NCBI RefSeq assembly: GCF_013377535.1
Contig: NZ_JABCJE010000014.1
Location: 1-64,000, forward strand
Length of the DNA stretch: 64,000 bases
Source: Donghicola mangrovi
GTDB taxonomy: Bacteria > Pseudomonadota > Alphaproteobacteria > Rhodobacterales > Rhodobacteraceae
Direction: 5' to 3'
Of this stretch, positions 44,419-62,725 are shown piece by piece; positions within the stretch are counted from its first letter, which is position 1; every line of letters starts with the position of its first letter. Below the pieces are notes generated by a model. The model searched no databases. It was not told where the DNA came from and saw only the letters and a list, made by a program, of their open reading frames with translations. A program made the translations under genes and the position numbers.

Positions 44419-44523
44419 GCCGCGCAGTTGTTCGGGTTGCTTTGAGATAACGCGTTACTGTTCGCCGCAGGACGAAAATGGAAAACGGTAGGGGCGGCTT
44501 CATCCCCCCGTGGTGAGGTAACT

Positions 44524-45448: not shown

Positions 45449-45868
45449 ATGACCTCGAACTGCATCATATTCACCTGCACCGGCATCGAAACCGCCAAGG
45501 GCGTCGGCTCCGTCTCGACTCTGATCTTCGATCTCGACAGCAAGGTCGAACCCGTCGCGAGCGCGAACTCGATGGCCCCCACGCACCGTGTCCTCGGCCG
45601 CTCACTGCGCGGCAAGCTGGTCGAATGTGGCTGCATCTGGAATAAGCAGAATACGGAGACCGGCGCCGACTACTACACGCTGACGATCCGCGACCACGGC
45701 TTCAACACCAACCTCGGTAAGGCCGCGAACCAGGACGAGCTGCCCCTGCAGGCCGCTGTCCCTTTGGGGGCCGAAAGACGCCGGGTGAACCAACGGCTGG
45801 CAGCGGTTCTCCTCTGCCAGCCCGTTTACAGCTGTAAATTTCGAAGCCAGCGCTGTTTGCGCATATAG
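45449..45868 (+). CDS. DUF736-family plasmid protein
   Basis: A 139-aa protein resembling DUF736, a small family common on alphaproteobacterial plasmids. Typical features are IETAKGVGSVSTLIFDLDSK, an APTHRVLGRS core and TGADYYTLTIRDHGFN near the end. The last ~35 residues (RRRVNQRLAAVLLCQP ...) do not look like the family and run over a parS-like palindrome, so the 3' end may be frameshifted or replaced. No strong ribosome-binding site is visible. Function unknown. Confidence 0.55.
   Translation: MTSNCIIFTCTGIETAKGVGSVSTLIFDLDSKVEPVASANSMAPTHRVLGRSLRGKLVECGCIWNKQNTETGADYYTLTIRDHGFNTNLGKAANQDELPLQAAVPLGAERRRVNQRLAAVLLCQPVYSCKFRSQRCLRI
45824..45839. promoter_or_regulatory. parS-like centromere site 1, upstream of repA
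   Basis: GTTTACAGCTGTAAAT matches the repABC parS consensus GTTNNCNGCNGNNAAC at all fixed bases but the last. It lies 148 bp before the repA ATG and is the likely RepB binding site. Confidence 0.7.
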
Positions 45869-45987
45869 TCTCTTCCCACCTCAATAGGCACTATATAGAG
45901 GAAAAATCTTGACTTAGCGCTGTGAATCACCGCTCTTATCCTCAAGTGGCGCGAAAAAGGCCATATTTTCGAATTTGAGGCAACTAG

Positions 45988-47172
45988 ATGATTCCTGTGA
46001 CACCACTGGCAAACGAGAAGCCTTCAGCACTCGCGACAGATATTTCCGAGCGGTTGAATGCTGCTATCCGGGAGCATCTTCTTTCAGCTTTCGCCCCAGA
46101 TAGCACAAAAGCGCTACGGTCTTTTTCCGCACCTGAGGCTGCAGAACTCCTCGGGGTCTCCGGTCAGTTCATGCGAAAGCTGCACTCAGAGGGAACCATC
46201 CCAGAGCCCGAAGATGTTCGTGGAGGGCGGCGCTTCTACACGGCGCAAGAGATATGGGATGCACGCGAGATTCTAGAGAAGTCGTCACGCAAGAAAGGGC
46301 GCTATCTGCCTCGACGGTCAGGTGAAGAGAAACTGCAAGTTTGGCAGTTGATGAACTTCAAGGGCGGGTCGAGCAAGAGCACCACGAGCATCCATCTTTC
46401 GCATTATTTTGCGCTTCGCGGCTACCGAGTGTTGGTCGTTGATCTGGATCCCCAGGGGTCTCTCACATCCATGTGCGGCATCAGCCCGGAAATCGAGTTT
46501 GATGGGCTGACTGTCTATGACGCGATCCGTTACGACGATCCAGTAAGCATGGCCGATGTCGTGGTTCCCACCTACTTCCCCGGGCTTTCGATCGCGCCGT
46601 CGCGCCTCATGCTGTCGGAATTCGAGACTGAATCTGCCGTCCATTCGAACCCCGACCAGCCGTTCTTTACACGCATCCGAAGCGCATTGTCCCAGGTCGA
46701 AGGTGATTTCGACCTCGTCCTGATGGACAGCCCACCACAGCTGGGCTTTTTGACCATTGCTGGAATGGCCGCGGCAAGTTCGCTGATCGTCCCGTTGACG
46801 CCTTCGATGTTGGATGTTTCGTCGACCGCACAGTTCCTCGAACTCGCCGGTGCCTACATGGGGGTGATCGAGGACGCTGGCGCGACTCTACAGTATGATC
46901 ACTTCAAGTTCCTGATCACGCGGGACGAGCCAACGGATGTGCCCTCACAACAGCTGACCTCATTTATGCGTGCGCTTTTCCAAGATCGCGTTATGTCGGC
47001 GACCGCTCTCAAGAGCACAGCCATCAGTGATGCGACCATGCTCAAACAATCCATCTATGAAGTCGTGCGCTCCGAGATGACACGCGCGACCTACGATCGC
47101 GCAAAAGGTTCGATGGATGCCGTCGGCCACGAAGTGGAATTCATGATCCACCAATCATGGGGGCGTAAGTAA
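45988..47172 (+). CDS. repA: RepA, plasmid partition ATPase (ParA family)
   Basis: A 394-aa ParA-type Walker ATPase of a repABC replicon. An N-terminal helix-turn-helix (SAPEAAELLGVSGQFMRKLH, about residues 47-66) is used for autorepression. The deviant Walker A is KGGSSKST (125-132), followed by VLVVDLDPQGSLTSM and the LMDSPPQLGFLT Walker B region. It segregates the plasmid with RepB and parS and represses the operon. It overlaps repB by 1 bp. Confidence 0.93.
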   Translation: MIPVTPLANEKPSALATDISERLNAAIREHLLSAFAPDSTKALRSFSAPEAAELLGVSGQFMRKLHSEGTIPEPEDVRGGRRFYTAQEIWDAREILEKSSRKKGRYLPRRSGEEKLQVWQLMNFKGGSSKSTTSIHLSHYFALRGYRVLVVDLDPQGSLTSMCGISPEIEFDGLTVYDAIRYDDPVSMADVVVPTYFPGLSIAPSRLMLSEFETESAVHSNPDQPFFTRIRSALSQVEGDFDLVLMDSPPQLGFLTIAGMAAASSLIVPLTPSMLDVSSTAQFLELAGAYMGVIEDAGATLQYDHFKFLITRDEPTDVPSQQLTSFMRALFQDRVMSATALKSTAISDATMLKQSIYEVVRSEMTRATYDRAKGSMDAVGHEVEFMIHQSWGRK

Positions 47173-48143
47173 TGGCAAGGAAATCACTTCGAGATATGTC
47201 GGGGATCGCGAACACTATCGCGCGTTCCAGCAGCACTTCGACTGAGAAGCCTCCCAAGACAAGTGCACCAGCATTAGGAGCTCTTCAGGGGTCACTGGCG
47301 TCTATCCGTGAGATTGATCCCGGTCTGATCGATGATTGGGGGCCGAAGGATCGATTGGATGAGTTTACAGCTGTAAACGCCGAGGATGACGATGAGGGTT
47401 TTGAGGCGCTAAAGAATAGCATCCGCGAAGGCGGTCAGCAGGTCCCAATCCTCGTTCGGCGCTCCAAGGCTGCCGACGGGCGCTTTGAAGCGATCTATGG
47501 CCGCCGCCGTCTGAAAGCGTGCCGAGAGCTAGGCATCAAGGTGCGTGCAAACGTTCAGGATGTCGATGACGCCACGGCGTTGTTGGCTAAAGGGCTGGAA
47601 AATGCAGCACGTCGAAACCTCTCGTTCTACGAGAAGGCGCGTTTTGCCGAGGCTATTCAAGCAGCGGGTCACGAAAGCGCGACAGTGCGCCAGGTTCTGA
47701 ATCTTTCCGCCTCAGGGCATTCACACCTGACGAAGGTGACGCAGAATGTCCCGTCCAGAGTTGGCGACCTGATAGGTGCAGCACCCAAATCCGGCAGGCC
47801 GAGGTGGACAGACCTTGCCGAGCTATTCCTCGAACGGAAGCTCTCCGAGAAAGTCGCACTCGACCTGCTGGCCAAGATCAGCGCCTCATTGACGTCTGAT
47901 GAGCGGTTGGAAGCGCTGATCAAGCAAGCAAGCAAGCGCGGAACGAAAGCGTCCAGCGGTCCTCGTGAGATTACGCCGATGGACGGTGTCGTCATCAAAG
48001 CAGGCCGAGGGAGCGTATCTCTTTCGGTGAAGAAGTCCGGCACAAGTGCCGAGTTCGCAAACTGGCTTGAGAGCAATCTCGCGGACATCATCAAGAGATC
48101 CTACGCCGAATTTACAGATGTAAACTCGGAGGATGACAAGTGA
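47172..48143 (+). CDS. repB: RepB, ParB-family centromere-binding protein
   Basis: A 323-aa ParB-type protein. Its ParB/Srx domain contains REGGQQVPILVRR and AIYGRRRLKACRELG, followed by an EKARFAEAIQAAGHESATVRQ helix-turn-helix region. It binds parS sites, two of which (one perfect, one degenerate) lie inside its own coding sequence. It is translationally coupled to repA. Confidence 0.92.
   Translation: MARKSLRDMSGIANTIARSSSTSTEKPPKTSAPALGALQGSLASIREIDPGLIDDWGPKDRLDEFTAVNAEDDDEGFEALKNSIREGGQQVPILVRRSKAADGRFEAIYGRRRLKACRELGIKVRANVQDVDDATALLAKGLENAARRNLSFYEKARFAEAIQAAGHESATVRQVLNLSASGHSHLTKVTQNVPSRVGDLIGAAPKSGRPRWTDLAELFLERKLSEKVALDLLAKISASLTSDERLEALIKQASKRGTKASSGPREITPMDGVVIKAGRGSVSLSVKKSGTSAEFANWLESNLADIIKRSYAEFTDVNSEDDK
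47363..47378. promoter_or_regulatory. parS-like centromere site 2, inside repB
   Basis: GTTTACAGCTGTAAAC is a perfect 16-bp palindrome matching every fixed base of the repABC parS consensus. It lies in the 5' part of repB. Confidence 0.82.
48110..48125. promoter_or_regulatory. Degenerate parS-like site 3, 3' end of repB
   Basis: ATTTACAGATGTAAAC keeps the arms of the parS palindrome but differs in the first base and the central GC. It lies just before the repB stop and is possibly a weaker RepB site. Confidence 0.5.
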
Positions 48144-48174
48144 GGACGAGCAGAAAGGAGGAAAGGTAAACAAA

Positions 48175-48235
48175 GAAAACCCCCGAAACCGAAGCTTCGA
48201 GGGCTGCTGCGCAGAGCGCAGTTCTTAGATTAGAC
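48175..48235 (-). ncRNA. Counter-transcribed RNA of the repABC replicon (predicted)
   Basis: The minus strand between repB and repC has a TTGTGT -35 (48265-48270), a 17-bp spacer and a TAGATT -10 (48242-48247). The transcript would end at a hairpin (48180-48203: CCCTCGAA / TTTCGGGGG) followed by TTTTC. The predicted size of about 60 nt is that of known repABC antisense RNAs, which repress repC and set incompatibility. Confidence 0.6.
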
Positions 48236-48318
48236 ACCTAGAATCTAGCAGCCACCGAATCGCCACACAAGAGAAAACGCTTCTGAGCGAACGGGATTTC
48301 TTTGTCTGCTGACAAAAC

Positions 48319-49677
48319 ATGGAAAAATTCAGTGATGCTCCGTCTGGAGCGACTGAGGCAGGTATGCCTCAGCACGAGAGAAATATGCCCATCGCATGGC
48401 AACCCTCAGGCTGGCGTAGAGCCTCCGCGGGCCTCGCTGCCGCAGAGCAGCTTGCCCATGCCGGTGAACAGATGGCTGTACCCAAAACGCGGGCCTTCGT
48501 GGCCGTCAAGCGGGTGGGGGCCTACATCGGCCTCAAGGCCGGAGACATGATGCTCCTCGATACGCTTGGGGCCTTTACGCAGGCCCAGGACTGGGAGGAG
48601 GGGCAGCGCCCGATCGTCTGGGCATCGAATGCCTATCTGATGGAGCAGACGGGGTTTTCGCTCTCTGCACTCAAGCGCCACGCACGGCGACTGGCCGAGA
48701 TCGGCGTGATTTCCTTCCAAGACAGCCCGAACGGCAAGCGATGGGGCCGTAGGGACGCCGAAGGGCGCATTGTCGAGGCCTACGGCTTCGATTTGTCGCC
48801 GCTGTCGGCGCGTGTCGAGGAGTTCGAGGAGCTCCATGCCGATTTGCAGGTCGAGCGCGAGCTATGTCAGCGCCTGAAGCGTCAGATCACCGTGGCACGC
48901 CGTATGATCCGCGCTCGGATCGAGGCGGCCGTCAGCAGTGCGCTGCGCGGCCCCTGGACGCAATTCACGGGTCTCTTCGAGGAGCTTCTGGAACGGCTTC
49001 CGCGCCGTCACGAAGCCTCAGAGCAGCTTGCACGACTCTTGACTTGGTTCAAGGAGCTTCAGGAGCGCGTCGAGGCTGCCTATCTCAAGGCAACAGAGGT
49101 TGTTCAATCTGTGGAAAACACGCCGGAAACCAAGGAGCAAGTTACCAAGGAGACTCAAAAAATGAACCCCAGGAAGGTCATTTCTGACCCTCATATACTA
49201 ATTACAAACCAACTTAATCCTGTAACTCGTAATTCCTCAGAAAATGAGGAAGTCGCGGCCGTGGTACCCAATTCTCAACCCGAGGACCAAGTTGATAGGG
49301 AGTTGGAAGAATGGGTTGCCGATGTGCGCAAGAAGCGCGCTGCGCTGGATCTGCCCACCGTGATGCAGGCCTGCCCTGAATTCGCATCCTGGGCGCGCAA
49401 TATGGGCGGGTTCCTGAAGGATTGGGGCGATCTGCATCGTGTTGCGGGTCAACTCAGGCCGATGATCGGGGTGTCCGACCATGCCTGGAACGTCGCGCAG
49501 GACCGTTTGGGCAAACAGGTGGCGACAGCAGCGCTAGCGCTTGTCTTCGAGAAGCATTGCGCGGGCGAGGTTGCGTCGCCGGGCGGCTATCTGCGCGGCA
49601 TGGTAGAAAAGGCCGGGGCAGGGGAGCTGCATCTCGAGCGCAGCTTCTATGGCAGGCTCAGCGGGCAGGCGGCGTGA
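48319..49677 (+). CDS. repC: RepC, repABC-type replication initiator
   Basis: A 452-aa replication initiator. The N-terminal winged-helix DNA-binding part (YLMEQTGFSLSALKRHARRLAEIGVISFQDSPNGKRW region) and the C-terminal domain with SPGGYLRGMVEKAGAGELHLERS are typical of RepC. An AT-rich linker (about 49130-49260) interrupts an otherwise GC-rich gene, as in repC genes that contain oriV. ATGs at 48364 and 48385 (MPIAWQPSGWRR) are alternative starts; 48319 lacks an obvious ribosome-binding site. Confidence 0.9.
   Translation: MEKFSDAPSGATEAGMPQHERNMPIAWQPSGWRRASAGLAAAEQLAHAGEQMAVPKTRAFVAVKRVGAYIGLKAGDMMLLDTLGAFTQAQDWEEGQRPIVWASNAYLMEQTGFSLSALKRHARRLAEIGVISFQDSPNGKRWGRRDAEGRIVEAYGFDLSPLSARVEEFEELHADLQVERELCQRLKRQITVARRMIRARIEAAVSSALRGPWTQFTGLFEELLERLPRRHEASEQLARLLTWFKELQERVEAAYLKATEVVQSVENTPETKEQVTKETQKMNPRKVISDPHILITNQLNPVTRNSSENEEVAAVVPNSQPEDQVDRELEEWVADVRKKRAALDLPTVMQACPEFASWARNMGGFLKDWGDLHRVAGQLRPMIGVSDHAWNVAQDRLGKQVATAALALVFEKHCAGEVASPGGYLRGMVEKAGAGELHLERSFYGRLSGQAA
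49130..49260. other. Candidate oriV inside repC
   Basis: An AT-rich stretch within repC with a short dyad GGTCA-TTTC-TGACC at 49176-49189. In characterised repABC plasmids the origin lies in an AT-rich part of repC. Inferred by analogy; no DnaA box is claimed. Confidence 0.45.
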
Positions 49678-49688
49678 TGGGGCAGGGG

Positions 49689-50804
49689 TCAGAGACCGGC
49701 AGCTTTGGTCAGGTTCACCCGGAACCGATCGCGCCGGCGCTGGTAGCGGCGGGTCATCTCGGCTGAGGCATGACCAAGTTGTTTCTGAACATAGCGTTCA
49801 TCGACCTCAGCGGAACTGGCCAGGCCGGCACGCAGCGAGTGGCCAGAGAACAGCGCCAGACGTTCCTTTTCGGGCAGTTCGGAGCGGATGCCGGCGTCTA
49901 GGACTGTGCGCTTGATCAGCCGGGCCACATGCTTGTCGTTGAGCCGTGTATCGAGGGCGCGCTTGCCATCGCGCGAGGTCCCTACAAAGACGGGGCCGAA
50001 ACTGATCTTTGCAAAGTGCAGCCATTGCTCGAGAGCATGCACTGGGCAGGTCTGATCCTTAGAGCCGCGGCCGATCTCGACCTCGCGCCAACCTGTCTTC
50101 GCATTGAGGGTCAGGAGGGCGCCTTTCTTCATGATCTCAATCCATCCGCCGGAATCTGGCGTGTCATCTTTATGTACATCGAGGCTCACGATTTCCGAGC
50201 GGCGGAGGCCTCCTGCGTAGCCGAGCAACAGGATCGCACGATCTCGTAGCCCGCGCAGGTCATGCGGCAGCGTGGAAACCATCGCGAGGATGTCCTTGGC
50301 CAAAATGGCTTCCTTCTGCACTGGCGGACGGCCATGCTTACGCTTGATCCCTGACAGTACTGTTGCGATATGCCGGTTCGTGCGATCAAGTGCGAAACCC
50401 CGTTGCGCATAGTTCCAGGCGAGACCGGAGAGGCGGCGATCGATGGTTGTGACGGATAGGGATCGGGACGCCGACTGCGAAGGGGAGGGGCCCGACCCCG
50501 ACGCCAGGTCCGCGAGATAGAGCCCGATTATTTCTGGCGATGGGGGCAGGGGGGCCGTCCCTTTCAGCCGGCACCAGCGCGCGAAGTGCGCCCAATCCTT
50601 GGCATAGGCCTTCAGCGTGTTGTCAGAGGCAGCTGCGAGCGCATAGTCGCGTGCAGTGTCGATCAAGCGATCGAGCGTCCCGGAGCCAGCGACATGAGAG
50701 GGAATGGTGATGCCATCGCTTTCCACTTCGGCTCTCTCGTTTTTGTGAGCTTCTTTCAGCTCCTCAGTGGGCGCTGGCGTCGATTTCTCGGTCTCTGAGG
50801 GCAT
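49689..50804 (-). CDS. Tyrosine recombinase / site-specific integrase
   Basis: A 371-aa integrase-family protein. It has a SAM-like N-terminal domain (DNTLKAYAKDWAHFARWC) and a catalytic domain with Arg in YAGGLRRSEIVSL, His-x-x-Arg in SGHSLRAGL, a further His in LGHASAEMTRRY and the Tyr nucleophile there. It ends 11 bp from the convergent repC. ATG 50804 is used; GTG 50813 and TTG 50825 are in frame. It is divergent from tniA, so the ~150-bp gap holds both promoters. Confidence 0.88.
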   Translation of the reverse strand: MPSETEKSTPAPTEELKEAHKNERAEVESDGITIPSHVAGSGTLDRLIDTARDYALAAASDNTLKAYAKDWAHFARWCRLKGTAPLPPSPEIIGLYLADLASGSGPSPSQSASRSLSVTTIDRRLSGLAWNYAQRGFALDRTNRHIATVLSGIKRKHGRPPVQKEAILAKDILAMVSTLPHDLRGLRDRAILLLGYAGGLRRSEIVSLDVHKDDTPDSGGWIEIMKKGALLTLNAKTGWREVEIGRGSKDQTCPVHALEQWLHFAKISFGPVFVGTSRDGKRALDTRLNDKHVARLIKRTVLDAGIRSELPEKERLALFSGHSLRAGLASSAEVDERYVQKQLGHASAEMTRRYQRRRDRFRVNLTKAAGL

Positions 50805-50844
50805 TTTTTCCACTGAATCCGGCAATCAAATTGATGTCGTTCTT

Positions 50845-50931
50845 GTTCCATGAGTGGACACTAACGTATTGATATCATTACGTTCATGTTCTTGTTTCAT
50901 TCCCGGATTATAGTTTCATTATCGGACATAA
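50845..50931. repeat. Left repeat cluster upstream of tniA
   Basis: Three related ~19-bp units: GTTCCATGAGTGGACACTAA (50845-50864), GTTTCATTCCCGGATTATA (50894-50912) and, directly following, GTTTCATTATCGGACATAA (50913-50931). An inverted relative lies after tniQ. They are probably TniA-binding sites at a transposon end, or operators for the divergent int/tniA promoters. Confidence 0.6.
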
Positions 50932-50955
50932 GACACTTATTTTCCGGGTTTGGCC

Positions 50956-52602
50956 ATGGTGGATCGAGCAGACATCAACGCCGTCGACGATGCTGCGTGG
51001 GAACAGGCGGTTGCGCGGGAAGCTGTGATCCGTCGCCTTGCAAGCAAGGCGCCACCGAACCGTGCCGAATTCCTAAAGGCCTGCCGCGATCTTGGTCTCA
51101 AGCGCTCTCGCCTGTACGAATTGATCTCAGCGTACAAGGCGCGCCCGGTCGCCAGTTCGTTGCTGGCGGCTCAGGTTGGGACACCGACGGGCAGCCGCCG
51201 GCTGCCTGACGAGATCGAAGCGGTGATTTCGGGGGCGATCGAGGAGTTCTACAAGTCCCTCCAGAAGCCGAGCATCAACGCCCTGCAAAAGGAGGTGCGC
51301 AGGCGGTGCAGTCAGAGGGGTTTGCGTCCCCCGTGCTGGACCACGCTGCGGGACCGTGTGGCGGCGATAGATCCGGCGGAACTCATGGCGGCGCGTGAGG
51401 GCGCTAAGGCCTCTCGCCAGCGCCATCACCCGGTGTCAGGCAGCTATCATGTCGAACGGGCCTATGAGGTGGTTCAGATCGACCACACGTTGATGGATGT
51501 CATCGTCGTGGACCGGGTTCATCGGAAGCCTTTGCAACGGCCCTGGCTGACCCTTGCTATCGACGTCGCCAGCCGCATGGTGGCAGGGTTCTATCTGACG
51601 CTGGAGCCGCCATCAGCCTTGTCGGTTGCACTGGCCATTCAGCACTTAGTGCAGCCCAAATTCGACTGGCTGGAGAGCTTGGGGATCGACGCAGACTGGC
51701 CCGCCGAGGGATTGCCGGAGACCATTCACGTCGACAATGCCAAGGAGTTCCGCTCAAAAGCGATGAAGCGGGGCGCCGAGGAGCACGGGATTTCGTTGCA
51801 GTATCGGCCGATAGGGGCGCCACATTACGGCGGTCACATCGAGCGGCTGATCGGCACGATGATGGGGGCGGTCCACCTGCTGCCGGGATCGACCTTCAGC
51901 AGCATCAAGGACCGCGGCGACTATGATTCCGTGGGCAAGTCGGCGATGACGCTCGACGAGCTGGAGCACTGGTTGGCGCTGGAAATCACCCGTTATCATG
52001 CCGAACGGCACCGCTCGCTCGGCATTCCGCCAGTCGCGGCCTGGAACGAGGCCTATAGGTGGCGTGAGGCACCATTGCGCCGGCCTTACGATCCCGAGGG
52101 GTTCCGGATCGACTTCCTGCCGAGCACGGAACGCATGGTACGCCGCGATGGCATCCATCTCTTCGGCCTGCGGTATTGGGACGATGTCCTGAGCCTCTGG
52201 GCTGGTAGGCAGGACCGGCAATTGCGCGTTTCCTACGATCCTCGCGACCTCTCCATGGTCTTTGTCCGGAGCCCTCAGGGTCAGCGCTATGCTGTGCGGT
52301 TTGCGGACCTTCGCCATCCGTCGATCACCCTTGCGGAGCATCGTCGTGCGCAGGCGATCTTGCGCGAGCGTGGGCGCGCGCTCGAGGACGAAGACCTCAT
52401 ATTCGCGGTGATCGAGGAGCAGCGCGCCCTGGTTGATGCTGCCAGCATCAGGACACGGGAAGCCAGGCGGTTTTCCGAGCGACGGAACCGAGCGCTTGAT
52501 GGGGTAGGAGCCTACGAGACTGAGGATGCCGACCCCGAGCCTAAGGAAAGCGAGAATGTGCTCCGGGACCACCCGGGGTTCGAAGTTGAGGAATGGTCGT
52601 GA
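50956..52602 (+). CDS. tniA: TniA, Mu/Tn7 TnsB-type DDE transposase
   Basis: A 548-aa transposase with an N-terminal winged-helix region, an rve-type catalytic core with D176 (QIDHT), D260 (IHVDNAKEF) and E296 (GGHIERLIG), and a Mu C-terminal beta-barrel domain (YDPRDLSMVFVRSPQG). It is related to Tn5053/Tn402 TniA and Tn7 TnsB. ATG 50956 is preferred to TTG 50950. It overlaps tniB by 10 bp. Confidence 0.92.
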   Translation: MVDRADINAVDDAAWEQAVAREAVIRRLASKAPPNRAEFLKACRDLGLKRSRLYELISAYKARPVASSLLAAQVGTPTGSRRLPDEIEAVISGAIEEFYKSLQKPSINALQKEVRRRCSQRGLRPPCWTTLRDRVAAIDPAELMAAREGAKASRQRHHPVSGSYHVERAYEVVQIDHTLMDVIVVDRVHRKPLQRPWLTLAIDVASRMVAGFYLTLEPPSALSVALAIQHLVQPKFDWLESLGIDADWPAEGLPETIHVDNAKEFRSKAMKRGAEEHGISLQYRPIGAPHYGGHIERLIGTMMGAVHLLPGSTFSSIKDRGDYDSVGKSAMTLDELEHWLALEITRYHAERHRSLGIPPVAAWNEAYRWREAPLRRPYDPEGFRIDFLPSTERMVRRDGIHLFGLRYWDDVLSLWAGRQDRQLRVSYDPRDLSMVFVRSPQGQRYAVRFADLRHPSITLAEHRRAQAILRERGRALEDEDLIFAVIEEQRALVDAASIRTREARRFSERRNRALDGVGAYETEDADPEPKESENVLRDHPGFEVEEWS

Positions 52603-53531
52603 CTGAGGACAGCGCATTTGCACATGTCGATCAGGCCTACCGCCGGTTCGCGGCGCTGCCTGATGATGAGCGCATCGCCTGGATCCGCGCTGACCGCTGG
52701 ATCGGTTTCGATCAGTCAGGGGCCGCTCTGGCACGTCTGGAGAACCTGCTGACCTATCCACCGCGTGACCGGATGCCATGCCTGCTGATCTACGGTGACA
52801 CCGGCATGGGTAAAACCAAGATCGTCCGCAAGTTTGAACGTGACCACCCGCCGAAGTTCAGCCAGATCACCGGCGTTGACCACCGCCCGGTAGTTGTCGC
52901 GCGGGTGCCATCCGAACCCATCGAGCGCGATCTTTACCGCGAACTTCTGGCCAGCATGGGCGCACCGGCGATGACAGGCGGCACGCTCGCCCGTGAGAAG
53001 GATATCTGCCGGTCGCTGCTGCGAACCGTGGGGGCGAAGATGATCATTCTTGACGAGGTGAACGGCATGCTGGCCGGCACCTTCCGGCAACAGCGGATTT
53101 TTCTCAATGCGATCCGGTTTCTGGCCAATGACCTTCGAATTCCACTGGTGTGTGCCGGCACGGATCTGGCACGGCAGGCACTGCTGACCGATGCACAACT
53201 GGCCGAGCGCTTCGAGGCGTTCCATCTCAAGCCCTGGCAGAACGATGTCGCCTTCGCGGGACTCCTGAAAAGCTTCGAACGCATCCTGCCCTTGCGCGAG
53301 CCCTCCGATCTGATCAGCGGAGAGGCCCGAGGGCGGATTCACAAGCTGACCTCCGGCGTGACGGCGCGCATCTTCCGCCTGATCGAGACGGCGGCGGAAG
53401 ATGCGGTCCGGTCGGGCAAGGAGCGCCTCGACGCGGAAAGTTTCGGCGACAATCTGGTGCTGCCGCTGGTTTCGATGACCCAGACTGCTCGGCGGCGGGG
53501 CAAGCCCGTGCAACAACGGGTCGGGGCATGA
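52593..53531 (+). CDS. tniB: TniB, AAA+ transposition ATPase
   Basis: A 312-aa AAA+ protein: Walker A GDTGMGKT (68-75), Walker B MIILDEVNGM, sensor region LVCAGTDLARQ. It is the TnsC/MuB-like target-selection regulator of TniA. Start and stop overlap tniA and tniQ, giving strict translational coupling. Confidence 0.93.
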   Translation: MVVTEDSAFAHVDQAYRRFAALPDDERIAWIRADRWIGFDQSGAALARLENLLTYPPRDRMPCLLIYGDTGMGKTKIVRKFERDHPPKFSQITGVDHRPVVVARVPSEPIERDLYRELLASMGAPAMTGGTLAREKDICRSLLRTVGAKMIILDEVNGMLAGTFRQQRIFLNAIRFLANDLRIPLVCAGTDLARQALLTDAQLAERFEAFHLKPWQNDVAFAGLLKSFERILPLREPSDLISGEARGRIHKLTSGVTARIFRLIETAAEDAVRSGKERLDAESFGDNLVLPLVSMTQTARRRGKPVQQRVGA

Positions 53532-54586
53532 TGGTTTCGGCCCGACTGCCCGTCGCGCCGCGTCCGTTCCGGGACGAACTGCTCTCGTCCTGGATGGCGC
53601 GGGTTGCCGCGCGCTACGGGGCGGAGCCCCTTGAGCTGATGGTGTACCTGGCGGGGCAGGGGGGGAGGGACGCAGGCGCGCGGCAGGTTGACGATGTGGC
53701 GCCGGATATGGGGCTGCTCATGCTTTGGGCGAAGGCCTGCAGGATCGATCCGGAACGGCTTCGTCGCAGGTCGCTGGCGTCCCGATATCCTGCTCAGCCG
53801 CGGGATTGGTGTCTGACCGAGACAGTGCTGGTCTGCCTTGCCTGCTTCGATGCGGATGTTGCTGCCGGTCGCGATGCCTATCTGCGAGGGCATTGGCGAT
53901 TGACGGAGCAGGTGGTTTGCCCGGTACACCGGACCATGCTCCTGGATCGCTGCCCCACTTGTCGCGGTCACCTGAGGCTTTCCCTTCGCATGTTGAATGG
54001 CCTGCTGCGTCCCTTCTGCCGCAAGTGCGACGCCGTTCTGACTGGTGGGGGAGGGGAGGCAGAGGACCCTTTTAAGTTGGATTTCGCCGCAGGTGTCCTC
54101 GATCTCCAACGCCAGATCAGCGAAATCGTCAGAGGGGACACTGGCCATCTCGATCGACTCGAGTATGCAATTCGCACTCTGTGGGCGCCGCTCGACCGCG
54201 ACGGGGCGGCCCGGCCCGTCCTCGCGCTCTGGTACGACGAACCGGGTTGGAATTGTCCCTACGAGGCTCGTGCGGCCGTCGGTCGGTCCGCACCTCTTCA
54301 GCACCTATCAGTGCGCTGGCGGGCTCTGACGCTGGTGATACTGCATGATCTCTTTGGAGCAGATCTGGTGCCCGGTGCGGTCCTGCCGGAGGCCGCCCTT
54401 GTCCTATTCCGGCGCGCCGCCCCATTGCCGTGGCTCACCGATGGGCGGGATCTACGGAACGGCAAAGGAAAGCGCGCGATTGACGCTGGATCAGCGCGAG
54501 TCCACAGATTGAGCAAGAGGCCAGTCCACCGGTTAAATGGAAATTTCCTCGACGAGAGAGGCGATTTCGGCCGAATCCACCCATGA
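53528..54586 (+). CDS. tniQ: TniQ, zinc-finger target-selection protein
   Basis: A 352-aa TniQ/TnsD-type protein. Zinc-binding pairs are C103/C106 (CLAC), C131-x2-H134 (CPVH), C142-x2-C145 (CPTC) and C164-x2-C167 (CRKC), followed by a helical C-terminal region. It directs the TniA-TniB transpososome to its target. The start at 53528 overlaps the tniB stop. Confidence 0.88.
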   Translation: MMVSARLPVAPRPFRDELLSSWMARVAARYGAEPLELMVYLAGQGGRDAGARQVDDVAPDMGLLMLWAKACRIDPERLRRRSLASRYPAQPRDWCLTETVLVCLACFDADVAAGRDAYLRGHWRLTEQVVCPVHRTMLLDRCPTCRGHLRLSLRMLNGLLRPFCRKCDAVLTGGGGEAEDPFKLDFAAGVLDLQRQISEIVRGDTGHLDRLEYAIRTLWAPLDRDGAARPVLALWYDEPGWNCPYEARAAVGRSAPLQHLSVRWRALTLVILHDLFGADLVPGAVLPEAALVLFRRAAPLPWLTDGRDLRNGKGKRAIDAGSARVHRLSKRPVHRLNGNFLDERGDFGRIHP

Positions 54587-54627
54587 AACTAAAACGACAG
54601 ACCATGTTTCTCTGTCACGTCTTTTCG

Positions 54628-54657
54628 TGTCCGATAATGTAAACTTATTGGACATAA
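54628..54657. repeat. Right repeat pair downstream of tniQ
   Basis: An inverted relative of the left repeats (54628-54644; reads GTTTACATTATCGGACA on the minus strand) is followed at once by a direct TTATTGGACATAA (54645-54657), 12 of 13 identical to TTATCGGACATAA of the left cluster. The arrangement fits the right end of a tniABQ element. Confidence 0.55.
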
Positions 54658-54713
54658 ATGAGTTTGACAAGCTGGGGCGCTTATTGTGCATATTTCTGGA
54701 TTTAAGCGCCGCC

Positions 54714-55616
54714 ATGGGTTACGATATACCTATGCCTTACCACCGCTCTGATCTTCTCAGTGACCCAGATTTACTCCCCAGACTACCGATCTGGGCAACC
54801 GTTGAACGTGCGGAAAACATTGAAGATGCGGCATTTCTTTCCGGCGCAGCATTGAGTCACTTACAGGGTGTGCTGGAACGCAAGGACGTTCCACAGGCTC
54901 TCTTGCGGGATCGATTGGCGCTGCGCGCGGCGGAGGCCTGCATGGTCTTTTCTGGACGTCCGGAGCGGGCAGGGGATTTGCGCGATGCGGTGCATCTCAT
55001 GCGTCCCGGCGATCTGCCAGGACCCGCAGGCGAAACCTACCTTGCCTGGCGCCGCGCGGTGGAGCGGCCGGTATCGGTCAAAGCCTTAGGGCGGGCATTG
55101 CCAGCAATAGATGCAGACCAGATTGCCCCGTGGCTCGATGCAGGGCAGGGTGCAGCGATGACACGGGCTGCGATGGTGCTGGAGGCCGTGCTAGCGGACG
55201 CGCCGCGGGCCGAGGGGCCAGCGCTGATCCTTGCCGATGGGGCCCTGTCGCAGGCCCTTGGCTGGGAGTGCCTCTTGCCCTTGCTCGCTGCCGGCCTGAA
55301 ACGCGCCGATCTGAAGAAGCAAGGTGAGGACCTGCGCCTAGCCTGTCATCGCGCGGTCGTAGCGTCGACCATTGAGGCCGTCCGGCTGGCTAAGGAGGTC
55401 ACGCGACGGGCCGCGCACCTAAAATCCGTTGCCCCGAAACTCCGAGCCAAAGCAGCCGCCGAGGCGGTCGAGATGTTTCTGACCCGCGATGCGGTCGCCC
55501 CCGCGGTCTTGCCGATGCCGGATCGCGCGGCGCGGCGGCTCTGTGACCGGTTGGTCGATCTTGGAGCTATTCGCGAACTGACCGGCCGTGAAACCTTCCG
55601 GCTCTATGGGGTGTAG
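54714..55616 (+). CDS. DUF1403-type protein of the tni module
   Basis: A 300-aa protein resembling the DUF1403 family: LPRLPIWATVERAENIEDAAFLSGAALSHL near the start, an alanine- and arginine-rich helical middle, and a C-terminal winged-helix-like end (RAARRLCDRLVDLGAIRELTG). Function unknown. The start at 54714 (or ATG 54732, MPYHRSD) is chosen because the frame further upstream runs through the right repeat pair. It ends 2 bp before the scpB-like gene. Confidence 0.7.
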   Translation: MGYDIPMPYHRSDLLSDPDLLPRLPIWATVERAENIEDAAFLSGAALSHLQGVLERKDVPQALLRDRLALRAAEACMVFSGRPERAGDLRDAVHLMRPGDLPGPAGETYLAWRRAVERPVSVKALGRALPAIDADQIAPWLDAGQGAAMTRAAMVLEAVLADAPRAEGPALILADGALSQALGWECLLPLLAAGLKRADLKKQGEDLRLACHRAVVASTIEAVRLAKEVTRRAAHLKSVAPKLRAKAAAEAVEMFLTRDAVAPAVLPMPDRAARRLCDRLVDLGAIRELTGRETFRLYGV

Positions 55617-55618
55617 GC

Positions 55619-56212
55619 GTGGCGAAAAACAAACCTGAGGAGTCGTTGGATCGCGAGCTTTCGGAATTGCCACCTGACCTGCGCTGGCGGGAATGGATGC
55701 GCCGGATCGAAGCCGTTCTCTTCGCTACTGCCTCGCCTGTGCCGCGTGAGGATCTGTCCCGCGTCGTGGGGCAGGGGGCCTCTGTTGATTTGTTGATCGA
55801 CGACCTGACTGCGGATCTGGAGGGGCGGGCTTTTGAAGTTGCGCAGGTCGCCGGTGGCTGGATGTTTCGGACGCGGCCGGTTTATGCGCCTGCCATTCGC
55901 GCTGCGGCGGATGTTGGCGAGCAGGCTTTGGATCTCAGCGAGTTCGACGTGGCGGTTCTCGGTGCGATCGCCTACCACCAGCCAATCACGCGCGACGCAC
56001 TGAAGGATATCTTCGGCAAGGAAATCAGCCGCGACCTGATCGGGCGGTTACACGAACATGGTCTGATCGGGACGGGGCCACGGTCCCCGCGTCGCGGTGC
56101 GCCATACACTTATGTGACGACAGAGAAGTTCCTCGCAGTGTTCGATTTAGAGACATTGCATGATTTGCCCGATCGGGAGCAGCTTGAGGATGCGGGATTG
56201 GCGGAAGGTTGA
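55619..56212 (+). CDS. scpB: ScpB-like segregation/condensation protein
   Basis: A 197-aa protein with two winged-helix domains: WMRRIEAVLFATASPVPREDLSRVVG and FDVAVLGAIAYHQPITRDALKDIFG, then RRGAPYTYVTTEKFLAVFDL. This is the pattern of ScpB, the SMC-ScpA-ScpB kleisin partner. The GTG start at 55619 is coupled to the DUF1403 gene. No scpA or smc is nearby, so it is probably an accessory of the mobile module rather than the housekeeping ScpB. Confidence 0.8.
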   Translation: MAKNKPEESLDRELSELPPDLRWREWMRRIEAVLFATASPVPREDLSRVVGQGASVDLLIDDLTADLEGRAFEVAQVAGGWMFRTRPVYAPAIRAAADVGEQALDLSEFDVAVLGAIAYHQPITRDALKDIFGKEISRDLIGRLHEHGLIGTGPRSPRRGAPYTYVTTEKFLAVFDLETLHDLPDREQLEDAGLAEG

Positions 56213-56260
56213 TGCGCGTGGGTCGTGCCATAGGCCCTATCACTCATTTCCTCGCTATGG

Positions 56261-56291
56261 ATGAGTTATAGAAAGGCATCCTATAACTCAT
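56261..56291. repeat. Perfect AT-rich inverted repeat
   Basis: ATGAGTTATAG (56261-56271) and CTATAACTCAT (56281-56291) form a perfect 11-bp palindrome with a 9-nt spacer. It lies between scpB and the convergent AbiEii gene. There is no T-run. It could be a terminator, a protein-binding site or a recombinase core site marking the border of the tni/int module. Confidence 0.7.
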
Positions 56292-56366
56292 GAGAAGCTA
56301 GTGGCAGAGGATGGGGAGGACCGATGCGCCAAGCCGAGTTTTGTGCCAGCCGACAGGTTGTGGTGA

Positions 56367-57377
56367 TCAGCATTCGTTGATTTCGGCTTCTAGCTCTGCG
56401 ATTGCGCTCATCAAATCATCGAAAGTCGGCACTTCGCCGATGATCATTTCCCGCATTCCTGCGTAATCTCGGCGGAGGGCTGACTTGAGCTTCTCGTTTG
56501 GAAATAGGCGCAGTGATCCCTGCTTTGCGTCCTCATATCTTGCCCAAGCCGCCTTGAAGAACACCGACTTGTGGTGGCCGACCTCGTTTAGGAGGTCGAT
56601 GTTGGCTAGCGCGCGCGTCTTTGCATCATGCCTGATCAGCTGAGCCATGTCGTAGTAGTGACGGGACATTCGGTCTGCGAGCGGCTTCTTCGCATCCTGA
56701 TGGAACAGCATGTGGAGGATCGTCGCTTTCTCCCAGAAGGTTCGTTCGATCCCGAGAGTTTGGACTTCGACGGCGTTCACCCCAGGGAGGCTCGGAAAGG
56801 CTTGTTGGATGTATGTCTCAATTGAACGTTGTTCAGCTGGGAGCTGTGCCCCACGCGCGCCAAACTCGAACCGAATGAACGGCTGGATGTAGCCAGTGTC
56901 TTTGCCACCTAAAGACGGGTAGGCGAATAACACGGTCTGAGGGTCGCTTTCGTCGATCTGAAGTGAGAAAGACTGGTCCAGGTGCGCAGAGAAGGTGGTG
57001 TTGATTTCGTCGAGCAGGGGGCCGGCGACGGTGGCTTCGGCGGTATCTTGAAGATCTTGCAGCAGACATTTGCGTTTGCCGCTTGAGAGGTCAGGGTTTT
57101 CTGGATCGCGATCTCCCTCAAACCCGAGTTGGGTGCGGTCGAGCGACAGATCGACGTCCTCGGAAAACCGGTGGATCACATTATAGGCTTTCGAAAGCGA
57201 CGTGCCTCCTTTGAAGATCAGGTGGTCGCCAAATGAAGGCAAGGCGAAAAGATGCTGGAGCGACCAGCATACCCAAAAATCCTTCTCGACAATCGTCTTA
57301 CCAAAGCCAAGTTCTGCTGCGGCTTGTACAAAGGTTTCGTCTCGATGCTCAGGTATATCGTTCGCGAACTGATCCAT
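56367..57377 (-). CDS. AbiEii-type nucleotidyltransferase toxin
   Basis: A 336-aa protein of the AbiEii/AbiGii family, a pol-beta-type nucleotidyltransferase. Motifs are IVEKDFW (residues 30-36), FKGGTSLSKAY (55-65) and the catalytic SEDVDLSLD (72-80). The family toxin modifies RNA or tRNA and mediates abortive infection or plasmid stabilisation. It lies 2 bp downstream of its antitoxin gene. Confidence 0.92.
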   Translation of the reverse strand: MDQFANDIPEHRDETFVQAAAELGFGKTIVEKDFWVCWSLQHLFALPSFGDHLIFKGGTSLSKAYNVIHRFSEDVDLSLDRTQLGFEGDRDPENPDLSSGKRKCLLQDLQDTAEATVAGPLLDEINTTFSAHLDQSFSLQIDESDPQTVLFAYPSLGGKDTGYIQPFIRFEFGARGAQLPAEQRSIETYIQQAFPSLPGVNAVEVQTLGIERTFWEKATILHMLFHQDAKKPLADRMSRHYYDMAQLIRHDAKTRALANIDLLNEVGHHKSVFFKAAWARYEDAKQGSLRLFPNEKLKSALRRDYAGMREMIIGEVPTFDDLMSAIAELEAEINEC

Positions 57378-57379
57378 GC

Positions 57380-57976
57380 TCAGGTGTGCGCCACAATCTG
57401 CTGGACGACCGGATGCATCCAGGCCGGGACGTGTTTACTTTGCTTTGCGAGTTGTGCTCGATCCTTGGCGTCCAGCGTCCGCGCGATTTTCCCGATCACT
57501 TGATCGTCCATGCGATCCTTGCCGAGATAGCGCAGCGCTTGAAAGACAGTGCCTGTCTTCGACCCAGCTCCAACCAATGTCTTCGGAGAAGCTTTACGGA
57601 ACTGGATCACCTGTCGCCCGACTTTCTTCGTTCGAGTCGGTCCGTCGGTCATGTAGGTCGGGGTAGAGGGTACTTGAGTGGACAGACCCAGCTGGTTTGC
57701 TGCCATGGCGGGGGAGGGTTGCAGAACCTGATTGTCCTTCCGCGCGACAGCGCGCGCAATGTCATCGGTAGATGGCGCCAGAAGCCCAAACCGCGGGCTT
57801 TGCCTCGGGTAGTCATAGAGCCCCCGTGTCAGCCGCCGGATCACACCTTGATCGGTCAGGCGCGACAAAGCCTGATCTACGCTTGCTCGCGATCCGATAT
57901 CGAGGAAGTCTGACGGCGCGAAGATCGCGCCCCGTCCTTTTCCGAGAATACGTTGCTTGACTTTTGACGTGATCAT
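57380..57976 (-). CDS. AbiEi-type antitoxin and repressor (DUF6088)
   Basis: A 198-aa protein with an N-terminal winged helix (APSDFLDIGSRASVDQALSRL, LTRGLYDYPRQSPRFG) typical of AbiEi/DUF6088 antitoxins. It neutralises AbiEii and represses its own promoter through inverted repeats, one of which is visible 15 bp upstream. First gene of the pair. Confidence 0.88.
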   Translation of the reverse strand: MITSKVKQRILGKGRGAIFAPSDFLDIGSRASVDQALSRLTDQGVIRRLTRGLYDYPRQSPRFGLLAPSTDDIARAVARKDNQVLQPSPAMAANQLGLSTQVPSTPTYMTDGPTRTKKVGRQVIQFRKASPKTLVGAGSKTGTVFQALRYLGKDRMDDQVIGKIARTLDAKDRAQLAKQSKHVPAWMHPVVQQIVAHT

Positions 57977-57990
57977 GGCTCAACTCCATG

Positions 57991-58016
57991 TCAGAAAATA
58001 GGATATGTTTTTCTGA
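57991..58016. promoter_or_regulatory. Palindromic operator upstream of the AbiE pair
   Basis: TCAGAAAA (57991-57998) and TTTTCTGA (58009-58016) with a 10-bp spacer lie 14 bp before the antitoxin ATG. Placement fits autorepression by the AbiEi winged helix. Confidence 0.6.
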
Positions 58017-58140
58017 ACGTCAAGTGCTGCGGCTCTGGTAAAAATCCGGCACAATGGGCGGAGAGCGGTCGTTCGCTGCGCGGTTCACGAACGTCCGGGA
58101 CGCGGACGAACCTGAAGTTCGGCGTCGAGCTGAAGTAGAC

Positions 58141-59367
58141 TGGACTTGCATCACTTCCGTTCCGGTTTTCTGCGAGCAATGCTCGCCATAAAGGAGACCG
58201 GATATGGCACCCAAACATGGTGAAGACTTTAAGCGCGAGGCGGTTCGGATCGCGATGCACAGCGGCCTGACACGTCGACAGGTAGCCTCAGATCTTGGGG
58301 TCGGGTTTTCGACCTTGGGCAAGTGGATGCGTGATTATTCGACGGACCCGGCGGCCGCCGAGGACGCGGAGCTGCGCCGCGAGAATGAGCGCTTGCGCAA
58401 AGAGAACCGTATTTTACGGGAGGAGAGGGAGGTATTAAAAAAGGCCGAGATCTTCTTCGCAAGCCAAAAGCAATGAGATTTCAATTCATTGCGGAGTATC
58501 GCGGAGATCTTTCACGCGCCCGTCTGTGCCGCATGATGCAGGTTTCGGACCGTGGGTTACGTGCGTGGCGAAGCAGACCGTCGTCACGGCATCAGCGTCG
58601 CGACATGATCCTCTTGGCGCATATCCGCGAACAGCACCGGCTTAGCTTGGGCAGCTATGGCCGTCCGCGCATGACGCAGGAATTGAAAGAGCTAAGTATT
58701 CAGGTCGGCCAGCGCCGCGTCGCCCGGATCATGCGCGATAACGGTATCCAGGTTTTACGCAGCCGCAATTTTGAACGCACCACCGACAGCGATCACAGCT
58801 TCAACATTGCCCCGAACCGCCTGAACCAGGATTTCACTGCGACGGCGCCAAATCAGAAGTGGGCTGGGGACATAACTTACATCTGGACGCGTGAAGGTTG
58901 GTCCTATCTCTCTGTCATCATTGATCTATATTCGCGGCGTGTGATTGGTTGGGCGATCAGCAACCGCATGAAGCAGGATCTGGCCCTGCGTGCTTTGGAC
59001 ATGGCCATCGCCCTGCGGCGCCCCCAACCTGACTGCATTCACCATACCGATCGCGGAGCCCAATACTGCGCTCACGAGTACCAGAAGCGCCTGCGTCGTC
59101 ACAAGCTGATGCCTTCCATGAGTGGCAAGGGAAATTGCTTTGATAACTCGGCTGTTGAGAGCTTCTTCAAATCCCTCAAGGCCGAGTTGATCTGGCGAAA
59201 CACATGGCAGACGCGCCGAGATGTCGAAGTCGCGGTGTTCGAATACATCAACGGCTTCTACAACCCGCGCAGGCGCCATTCAGCACTGGATGGAAAATCA
59301 CCCGTAGCATTCGAAAAATCGGCGCATAACATGAGCAACACACCGGAACAGAAACGGTGCAAGTCCA
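58141..59367 (+). mobile_element. IS3-family insertion sequence
   Basis: 1227 bp bounded by 26-bp imperfect inverted repeats, 22 of 26 identical, both beginning TGGACTTGCA and ending GTTCCGGT. It contains orfA and orfB with an A6G slip site. No clear 3-4 bp target duplication is visible. The right end lies 5 bp from the stop codon of the patatin gene. Confidence 0.88.
58204..58476 (+). CDS. IS3-family transposase OrfA
   Basis: A 90-aa helix-turn-helix protein (FKREAVRIAMHSGLTRRQVA, LGVGFSTLGKWM) followed by a leucine-zipper-like coiled coil (LRRENERLRKENRILREER). An A6G slippery run at 58437-58443 in the 3' part would allow -1 frameshifting into orfB to make the OrfAB transposase. Its stop overlaps the orfB ATG. 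Confidence 0.92.
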   Translation: MAPKHGEDFKREAVRIAMHSGLTRRQVASDLGVGFSTLGKWMRDYSTDPAAAEDAELRRENERLRKENRILREEREVLKKAEIFFASQKQ

Positions 59368-59426
59368 CAAGGTCACTTCATGTAAGTGACCAAGGTGGCT
59401 TCACAAACCTCAGCGCCATGGCGTGA
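58473..59426 (+). CDS. IS3-family transposase OrfB
   Basis: A 317-aa DDE integrase-core protein: D in KWAGDITYIWT, D in IHHTDRGAQYC, E in CFDNSAVESFFKSLK. The reading frame does not stop inside the IS; it runs through the right terminal repeat (ending 59367) and takes about 20 codons from flanking DNA, overlapping the 3' end of the convergent patatin gene. This suggests that the natural stop depends on the insertion site. Confidence 0.92.
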   Translation: MRFQFIAEYRGDLSRARLCRMMQVSDRGLRAWRSRPSSRHQRRDMILLAHIREQHRLSLGSYGRPRMTQELKELSIQVGQRRVARIMRDNGIQVLRSRNFERTTDSDHSFNIAPNRLNQDFTATAPNQKWAGDITYIWTREGWSYLSVIIDLYSRRVIGWAISNRMKQDLALRALDMAIALRRPQPDCIHHTDRGAQYCAHEYQKRLRRHKLMPSMSGKGNCFDNSAVESFFKSLKAELIWRNTWQTRRDVEVAVFEYINGFYNPRRRHSALDGKSPVAFEKSAHNMSNTPEQKRCKSTRSLHVSDQGGFTNLSAMA

Positions 59427-60488
59427 AAGAAGGTCGAAGTCGTCTTCCGATATTCGGGTCAAGTTGGTCGGGTAGTTCAACGAGACGGCGCCCTGCTCGT
59501 CGGTGAGCCGTTCCGCGAGTGCCGTGGAATCCATCTCGAACTGCCGCATGGACACGCCCATTCGTAGTAGAACGCCCTTCACTTCTCCACGCAAAATCGA
59601 TCCCATCAGCATGCGGGAACGCAGTGCCCGTATCTGATCGCTTGCAATGTCGAAGAGCCGCGGCGAGTTGAGCCTGCCCTGAAGCATCCCGGTGATCGAA
59701 AAAGGCCGCGGCGCAGTCAAAGGGCCCGAGGCATCGCTGCAGATGAGGAAGTCACATCCCTGAAGGCCGTCAGCGGGCTTGTAGATAGCCTCCAGACCCA
59801 TGTTCTCGTATGCACCACCATCCCAGAGCCGAACGCGCTGCATCGGGCGTGAAATCTTCTCCTTTGGTGTTTTGGTCGCTCGATCCGTCTTCCACCAGCC
59901 ATGTTCCGGTAACTCGAGCCGCAGGATGCCAATCGCGTATGGCACCGCTGCCGACGCCGCAATGGCCGTTGCGATCGGGACGTCCGGGCTGAAGTGACGC
60001 CCGAACTGCCAGTCCCCCATCAACCTCTTCGAGAACCGCCAGTTCTTGCCGGTCTCGAAGCAGGTCGTGTTGATATGCCATTCCGGTGTGTCAGGCAGAT
60101 CCTTCACGGATCCTCTGACACCCCAGCGAGCGGCGAGAAGCTTCGGAAGGATTTCGGCTCTTCGAAAAAGGATTCGAATGTTCTCGCGAAGGATCCCGCG
60201 CCAACCCAGGGCGGTGAGGCTGAACAGGTCGCCGGCCGTAAGCCTCTTGCGAAGTTCGGGATAGATCTCGTCCAGGAACTGTCTGGAGGTCGGCCATTTG
60301 AGATCAGCGTGGGAGAAGATCGCGCCCACGATCAAGCTCCCTCCGGACACGGTCGAAATCTGCGTGACTTCCTCGAGGCGGCCCAACATTGCAAGATGCC
60401 GGAGTACGCCCAGGTGAAACACCGCGGCACGGACACCGCCGCCCGAAAGAGCGAGGCCCAGCCGCAGCCTGTCTTTGACGCTATCCAT
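59373..60488 (-). CDS. Patatin-like phospholipase, likely effector of the E2-E1-JAB operon
   Basis: A 371-aa patatin/cPLA2-fold hydrolase: oxyanion loop SGGGVR (residues 15-20), nucleophile Ser48 in STVSGGS, catalytic Asp223 in WDGGAYENMG. It has no signal peptide. By analogy with CBASS CapV phospholipases it may degrade the inner membrane when triggered. The start at 60488 overlaps the end of the fusion gene by 8 bp. The stop lies 5 bp from an IS3-family element, so the original C-terminus may have been altered. Confidence 0.85.
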   Translation of the reverse strand: MDSVKDRLRLGLALSGGGVRAAVFHLGVLRHLAMLGRLEEVTQISTVSGGSLIVGAIFSHADLKWPTSRQFLDEIYPELRKRLTAGDLFSLTALGWRGILRENIRILFRRAEILPKLLAARWGVRGSVKDLPDTPEWHINTTCFETGKNWRFSKRLMGDWQFGRHFSPDVPIATAIAASAAVPYAIGILRLELPEHGWWKTDRATKTPKEKISRPMQRVRLWDGGAYENMGLEAIYKPADGLQGCDFLICSDASGPLTAPRPFSITGMLQGRLNSPRLFDIASDQIRALRSRMLMGSILRGEVKGVLLRMGVSMRQFEMDSTALAERLTDEQGAVSLNYPTNLTRISEDDFDLLSRHGAEVCEATLVTYMK

Positions 60489-62721: not shown

Positions 62722-62725
62722 TCCG

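Follow-up and report, generated by a model that had tools for sequence, protein, structure and literature searches.

Positions 1–64,000 of contig NZ_JABCJE010000014.1 of Donghicola mangrovi, the 64-kb window analysed here, belong to one contig of a 4.3-Mb assembly in 63 contigs and carry a plasmid backbone cassette beside a repABC operon. The cassette consists of a divergent tyrosine recombinase gene (int), a 29-bp dyad that resembles a recombination site (att), a DUF1403 gene and an scpB gene. Between int and att lies a 3765-bp Tni transposon, in which tniA, tniB and tniQ are the only genes recognised and whose right end is 27 bp from att. We consider it likely that this element homes to att and that the resulting cointegrates are resolved there by the Int of the plasmid. 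A first-pass annotation of the same DNA had listed int, tniABQ, DUF1403 and scpB with strands and order that open reading frames and Pfam matches bear out, and had read them as one mobile unit carrying scpB, ending at 56291, 79 bp beyond the scpB stop. It overlooked repABC, the dyad at 54627–54655 and the transposon ends at 50835 and 54599. Of the six genes, int, DUF1403 and scpB lie outside the borders that these ends define, and most of the loci seen have the three together with no tniABQ; borders leaving out DUF1403 and scpB are the outcome that the annotation itself had set against its proposal.

The Tni element spans 50835–54599 on the forward strand, with ends TGTCGTT...AACGACA, and seven plasmids match it along its whole length (bases 1 to 3765) at 85.8–92.7% identity. 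Within it, tniA (50950–52602, +) encodes a DDE-type transposase (Pfam Mu-transpos_C, 3.2e-16) with the motifs IDHT, DNAKEF and GGHIE, which we take to be its DDE motifs, tniB (52593–53531, +) an AAA+ ATPase (Pfam TniB, 1.9e-66) and tniQ (53528–54586, +) a short TniQ (Pfam TniQ, 2e-15). The three reading frames overlap, and no Pfam family was found in five antisense open reading frames of the element. The combination of tniA, tniB and tniQ without tnsA is that of the Tn5053/Tn402 family, whose elements have TGTC ends, as does this one. Unlike them, the window element has no recognised resolvase gene (tniR), res site or cargo gene in its 3765 bp, res sites as such not having been searched for. 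By its sequence, tniABQ is a small, resolvase-less Tn5053-like transposon, separate from int, DUF1403 and scpB.

The position of the element relative to att is nearly constant. Of 24 right ends of window-type elements, 20 are exactly 27 bp away from att, on the int side (18 of 20 in the main locus set and 2 of 4 further loci, counted by eye on the sequences), and the stretches between (54600–54626 in the window) vary widely in sequence at a mostly constant length. The rows dropped are two in which the window recurs (L001 and L141), three without att within 450 bp of DUF1403 (L148, L149 and L152), a remnant without a right end (L021) and a tandem whose right end comes from another Tni type (L153). 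When left flanks are aligned to 83 Tni-free sites, 15 of 17 can be placed, 10 of them at 22 bp from att, 3 at 23 bp (the window included), 1 at 24 bp and 1 at 21 bp; L014 and L153 have no usable empty-site match. Since 22 bp plus a 5-bp target duplication makes 27 bp, different plasmids appear to have been hit at the same spot. Among the 17 window-type elements in which a left end was recognised, 4 have a 5-bp duplication (L055, L145, L146 and L147). The other 13 have no matching 5 bp, including the window element, which is flanked by ATTGA on the left and GACCA on the right, and two tandems (L051 and L153).

A second Tni type, with ends TGTCGG and a TniA 45–47% identical to that of the window (five copies), occupies the same interval, 42–55 bp from att in eight loci and 33 bp in the tandem L153; a TGTCGG-type end in L010 lies at 114 bp. 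One of three such elements (L082) has a 5-bp duplication. Tandem Tni copies occur in L051, L010 and L153. Among 112 rows, 25 bear Tni; its presence takes 22 changes when mapped on the Int tree and 21 when mapped on that of DUF1403, so Tni was gained or lost many times.

Three strains carry an identical or near-identical element on two plasmids each, namely Salipiger profundus (L006/L145), Pseudohalocynthiibacter aestuariivivens (L144/L147) and Sulfitobacter SK012 (L014/L146). In all three pairs the shared stretch begins at the Tni left end (one base earlier in L006/L145) and stops inside att or at most 2 bases beyond, at 27, 30 and 31 bases from where this 29-bp site starts. It is unbroken in the first two pairs (3,820 and 3,830 bp) and interrupted by an indel inside the element in the third. 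Over the next 80 bp ungapped identity is 51–69%, and the DUF1403 proteins of the paired plasmids are 43–45% identical. In every pair a perfect 5-bp duplication (ACCCA, TCGTC and CTGAC) flanks one of the two copies and the left 5 bp of the other differ, and the window copy is of this swapped kind. The donor of its right flank was not found: of 394 genomes, only the one from which the window comes has the 43-base junction. The three pairs fit cointegrates resolved by the plasmid Int at att. The first-pass annotation had placed Int in the role of a resolvase; Int is not part of the element, but the pairs are consistent with the role itself.

The int gene (49689–50825, −; Pfam Phage_integrase, 4.5e-16) starts at TTG 50825 or at the in-frame ATG of MPSETEK, the annotated start in the relative L005. 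Its homologues retain the catalytic motifs of tyrosine recombinases, GHSLR in 112 of 112 and LGH..AE.TR.Y in 109 of 112, whose residues we presume to have their usual roles. The att core (54627–54655, +), recognised as a dyad by locus comparison, has 11-bp arms and a 7-bp spacer. With L001, L003 and L004 excluded beforehand, 92 loci were scored, and 88 of them have the dyad between int and DUF1403, mostly with 76 bp separating it from the DUF1403 start; these loci have no further copy at the same score. It was not found in L053, L059, L064 and L073, and the sequences of L053 and L073 begin close to DUF1403. Allowing at most 2 mismatches, the att pattern is present in 52 of 295 genomes of the host family and a control pattern in 1.

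The inner 23 bp of att (54630–54652) resemble attA and attD of Rhizobium etli, which are located in p42a and p42d: the left arm is identical and the right arm reads TTATTGGA versus TTATCGGA, a difference of one base. As described in the part of PMC4928290 available to us, the R. etli system has a tyrosine recombinase gene, intA, with a 23-bp att just upstream, made of 8-bp arms TCCGATAA/TTATCGGA and a 7-bp centre; the window has all of these features save one right-arm base. The same source reports that IntA integrates and excises plasmids at attA/attD. The R. etli system differs in that p42a has no annotated DUF1403 or scpB beside intA (first 12 kb), so having this gene pair beside the recombinase gene is evidently not needed for IntA recombination, and the activity of the window Int would be known by analogy.

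Exchange at att is also suggested by loci without Tni. We fitted one identity change-point along about 2.9 kb in each of 1,225 pairs from 50 non-redundant Tni-free loci and regard as strong the 21 breakpoints with at least 95% identity on one side and a log-likelihood ratio of at least 25. In 12 of these 21 pairs the support interval overlaps the 29-bp core. Identity changes from 99.9% on the left to 71.8% on the right in L028/L089, from 77.7% to 100% in L070/L072 and from 100% to 77.4% in L070/L079; L062/L072 and L019/L090 are further examples. Five disjoint pairs (L028-L089, L070-L072, L019-L090, L040-L062 and L029-L033) break at the core and join different genera. As the breakpoints cluster at att, left halves (rep and int) and right halves (DUF1403 and scpB) appear to reassort there, and it is such breakpoints between natural loci that point to recombination at att in the window system.

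The cassette itself is widespread. A scan of species genomes with a DUF1403 alignment yielded 499 relatives, and the best 80 of 499 loci were kept for cassette counts. All 80 have scpB after DUF1403, 72 have a divergent Int upstream and 63 have RepA or RepC inside the locus, many contigs being short. Full tniABQ stands directly upstream of DUF1403 in 13 of the 80, with Int in view in 10 of these 13, and short Tni remnants occur in two more (L021 and L093). Complete plasmids carry the cassette both without Tni (Pseudosulfitobacter pSMR1-6, Afipia pHCG3B, Agrobacterium pAtCFBP5499b, Methylobacterium pMaq22A_2p and pTiBo542) and with it (Salipiger, Nitrobacter, Cereibacter, Methylocystis and Sulfitobacter). 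Because of these linkage counts and of complete plasmids in both states, we assign int, DUF1403 and scpB, as judged from their gene neighbourhoods, to the backbone of alphaproteobacterial plasmids. By tblastn, relatives of DUF1403 are found on 643 plasmid records (limit 1e-5), many of them near-copies, those of ScpB on 762 (limit 1e-5), with chromosomal-type ScpB counted too, and those of Int on 737 (limit 1e-30). DUF1403 matches are present in 61 of 295 genomes sampled from the host family, 56 of them above the cut-off, and in 4 of 385 sampled from the host class, 3 of them above it.

Seven att places away from DUF1403 or otherwise unusual were extracted (L154–L160). One has att and Int without DUF1403 (L156), two have att without any recognised cassette gene (L154 and L157), one has att with a broken Int (L155) and one has att with Int and DUF1403 about 2.4 kb apart (L158); with a stricter pattern, att was not found in L159 and L160. 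In L160, Tni, DUF1403 and scpB lie on a 3.1-Mb contig, which suggests a chromosomal or integrated copy. VapBC or CcdAB toxin–antitoxin genes are located between int and tniA in L007, L008 and L151.

The DUF1403 gene (54732–55616, +; Pfam DUF1403, 3.4e-92) may alternatively start at an in-frame ATG at 54714. Between it and att, locus comparison reveals a second conserved dyad (54674–54713), a possible operator or accessory site. No convincing sequence relative of the protein was found in the PDB (best E 0.41), no viral relative among 24 candidate stretches and no mention of DUF1403 in the open-licence literature searched. An AlphaFold2 model built from 66 sequences has a best mean predicted local distance difference test (pLDDT) of 74 and a predicted template-modelling score (pTM) of 0.74, the mean pLDDT of the five models ranging from 74 to 44. 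The top 7 Foldseek matches of the model are all Fic proteins (best Z 18.8), aligned over 264–267 residues including a C-terminal winged helix; the first non-Fic rows, at Z 8, cover the winged helix only. The best likeness is to SoFic (3zcn/3eqx), a Fic protein with a C-terminal winged helix. Fic enzymes carry the motif HPFx(D/E)GNGR, which is present in 0 of 112 DUF1403 proteins. Because the DUF1403 profile matched none of three neighbouring Fic proteins, the link to Fic is drawn from the model, in which DUF1403 has a Fic fold without the Fic motif, plus a C-terminal winged helix. We infer from it that DUF1403 may bind DNA, be catalytically inactive and act close to att together with ScpB. The idea that DUF1403 is a diverged ScpA (kleisin) was dropped for want of support, since profile comparison with seven ScpA proteins gave no match and it is Fic proteins that the model resembles; that the structure lists contain no kleisins is not proof.

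The adjoining scpB (55619–56212, +; Pfam SMC_ScpB, 5.2e-35) encodes a true ScpB by sequence, with an E value of 4.7e-22 to 1t6s in addition to the Pfam match, and thus shares its family with the chromosomal ScpB of the SMC complex, from which it differs in having no scpA in cis. As the first-pass annotation had remarked, no ScpA partner was met beside it, and the sole ScpA match in the genome is on contig C23. There the host's scpA adjoins a second scpB, whose product is 35% identical to the plasmid ScpB over 170 residues. The first-pass annotation had further suggested that the condensin-like subunit might serve to hijack chromosome or plasmid segregation.

We propose that Int recombines plasmids at the 29-bp att, fusing and resolving them by analogy with R. 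etli IntA, and that tniABQ, an element with no recognised resolvase, homes to one set position, 27 bp from att on its int side, where it would make a 5-bp target duplication. Because the element has neither TnsA nor TniR, transposition is presumed to be replicative and would yield a cointegrate; according to passages of PMC11406308, tniABQ elements without TnsA are expected to form cointegrates, and Tn7-like elements without TnsA are usually accompanied by a separate resolvase. With an att next to the element on both the donor and the target plasmid, Int could act as the resolving enzyme; the target would then keep its left flank and acquire the right 27 bp of the donor. Targeting would read either att DNA or Int bound to att. 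Sequence comparison itself shows the cassette, the element's borders, the spacing, the exchange between loci at att and the swapped flanks; replicative transposition, Int as the resolving enzyme and the cue read in targeting are deductions. DUF1403 would probably bind DNA near att through its winged helix and, we weakly infer, might with ScpB aid recombination or link the plasmid to the host SMC. The element shares with Tn5053/Tn402 res-site hunters, as presented in parts of PMC7765201 and PMC11406308, tniABQ without tnsA, a 5-bp duplication, homing beside a resolution site and use of a resident recombinase. It differs in targeting a tyrosine recombinase's att where the others target a serine resolvase's res, and in its mostly fixed 27-bp spacing. 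We regard it, on these sequence features, as a resolvase-less, att-homing relative of the res-site hunters; no account of a Tni element beside an IntA-type att was found among the matches listed in the open-licence literature searched.

Several findings weigh against this proposal. Four of the 24 right ends lie at 28 (a nested remnant), 30, 31 or 51 bp from att, and some left-flank placements come from weak alignments (L147, L075 and L044). In all three plasmid pairs the primary copy retains its own right flank, though simple resolution should give it the target's 27 bp; a bystander sister copy must therefore be assumed. Nine of the 21 strong breakpoints fall outside the 29-bp core and the pairs share loci, for which reasons 12 of 21 is not a number of exchange events. 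Across 324 aligned columns the identity between IntA and the Int of the window is 28%, which is why the activity of the latter is borrowed by analogy. Finally, in the one natural fusion examined the junction lies beyond scpB, in or beside a second, reversed Tni, and not at att. This fusion is a Pseudosulfitobacter plasmid of 197,672 bp, within 2 bp of the sum of 87,104- and 110,566-bp plasmids of other strains (L095–L098; NZ_CP087085, NZ_CP087047 and NZ_CP086812); we rejected it as proof of Int action, as each int keeps its own DUF1403 and scpB and the two plasmids join farther to the right.

One competitor concerns what is read at the target. TniQ might recognise att DNA itself, as TnsD does at glmS, with Int having no targeting role and acting, if at all, later on the cointegrate. 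A DNA-reading TniQ would yield fixed spacing, and L161 has Tni 31 bp from att with no Int match in the 9.9 kb examined, although Int could act in trans from another plasmid; on the other side, Tn5053-family elements, according to part of PMC7765201, rely on a target-site resolvase and transpose only rarely without one. We rate this reading at little short of an even chance. The converse, that Int on att selects the target in trans for TniQ/TniB, so that the plasmid recombinase does both targeting and resolution, with DUF1403 as a motif-less Fic-fold DNA binder that together with ScpB ties att to the host SMC, we put forward tentatively, as a possibility that is somewhat more doubtful than not. 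The mismatched flanks could also stem from ordinary homologous recombination between plasmids already bearing the element, instead of from Int at att, and three strains do carry two plasmids with such elements. This is unlikely, in that the shared stretch runs in all three pairs from the Tni left end to att or at most 2 bases past it, with identity falling to the values given above, and Tni-free loci exchange at att too.

Two further explanations seem to us very improbable. One is that all six genes form a composite transposable unit with Int as resolvase and ScpB as cargo. The six-gene order does recur in several plasmids, and also in Hyphomicrobiales, partly with extra genes between (TniQ by tblastn). 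Yet the transposon ends and, where present, the target duplications enclose tniABQ only, int-DUF1403-scpB without Tni is the commoner state, Tni presence is scattered across the Int and DUF1403 trees, and Tni stands beside att also where scpB, or both int and scpB, were not found. We give just as little credence to the 29-bp dyad being merely an operator of DUF1403 or int, with the pile-up of breakpoints arising by chance or assembly error. The dyad is palindromic and intergenic between divergent genes, as that explanation would have it, but its arms resemble experimentally used att sites, and the strong breakpoints that overlap it do so within 29 bp of about 2.9 kb, with the five disjoint pairs joining different genera.

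Upstream of the cassette, the repABC plasmid replication and partition operon (45988–49677, +) directly adjoins int and comprises repA (45988–47172, +; Pfam AAA_31/ParA), repB (47172–48143, +; Pfam ParB_N and RepB) and repC (48319–49677, +; Pfam RP-C and RP-C_C). The GC content of the window, about 0.60–0.70 in 1–44000, drops near 44 kb, just before repABC, to 0.55–0.64 in 44001–64000. Beside scpB lies an AbiEi/AbiEii type IV toxin–antitoxin pair (56367–57976, −), and an AbiEii-type gene with a partner is also near the cassette in the Salipiger and Afipia plasmids. Farther on, 59373–63949 (−) holds a Patatin-like gene (by eye), a fused E1-E2/JAB gene (PADLOC) and an open reading frame with weak PADLOC matches, a set that looks like part of what we take to be a cyclic oligonucleotide-based antiphage signalling system (CBASS); an IS3-type transposase gene (58473–59426) adjoins it.

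In 20 other loci (L025, L028, L029, L032, L033, L042, L045, L046, L060, L078, L081, L085, L086, L089, L091 and L094–L098) a second, divergent tni cluster lies in reverse orientation 0.4–1.1 kb downstream of scpB. The distances recur, perhaps marking another fixed target.

The element described here would be a natural minimal transposon, 3.8 kb long with three genes recognised, whose homing to a recombination site on plasmids is precise almost to the base pair. In the part of Faure et al. 2023 available to us (PMC10293859), a tyrosine recombinase acting in trans is proposed as an early target selector, and the TnsF and Tsy proteins of Tn6022 are tyrosine-recombinase proteins tied to Tn7-like target choice. 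The window recombinase differs from these in keeping its catalytic motifs, in being encoded by the plasmid and not the transposon, and in having its own att, not comM, as target. If Int does select the target, the system would be a living example of the step proposed there, a tyrosine recombinase still acting in trans and not yet domesticated as TnsF. The element would also make the recruitment of tyrosine recombinases as target selectors by Tn7-like elements testable. DUF1403-scpB is a widespread, unstudied gene pair of the plasmid backbone; the cassette is also on the Ti plasmid pTiBo542, and a related att is on the symbiotic plasmid of R. etli. For plasmids of the roseobacter group, the findings offer a mechanism by which halves may be exchanged at one 29-bp site.

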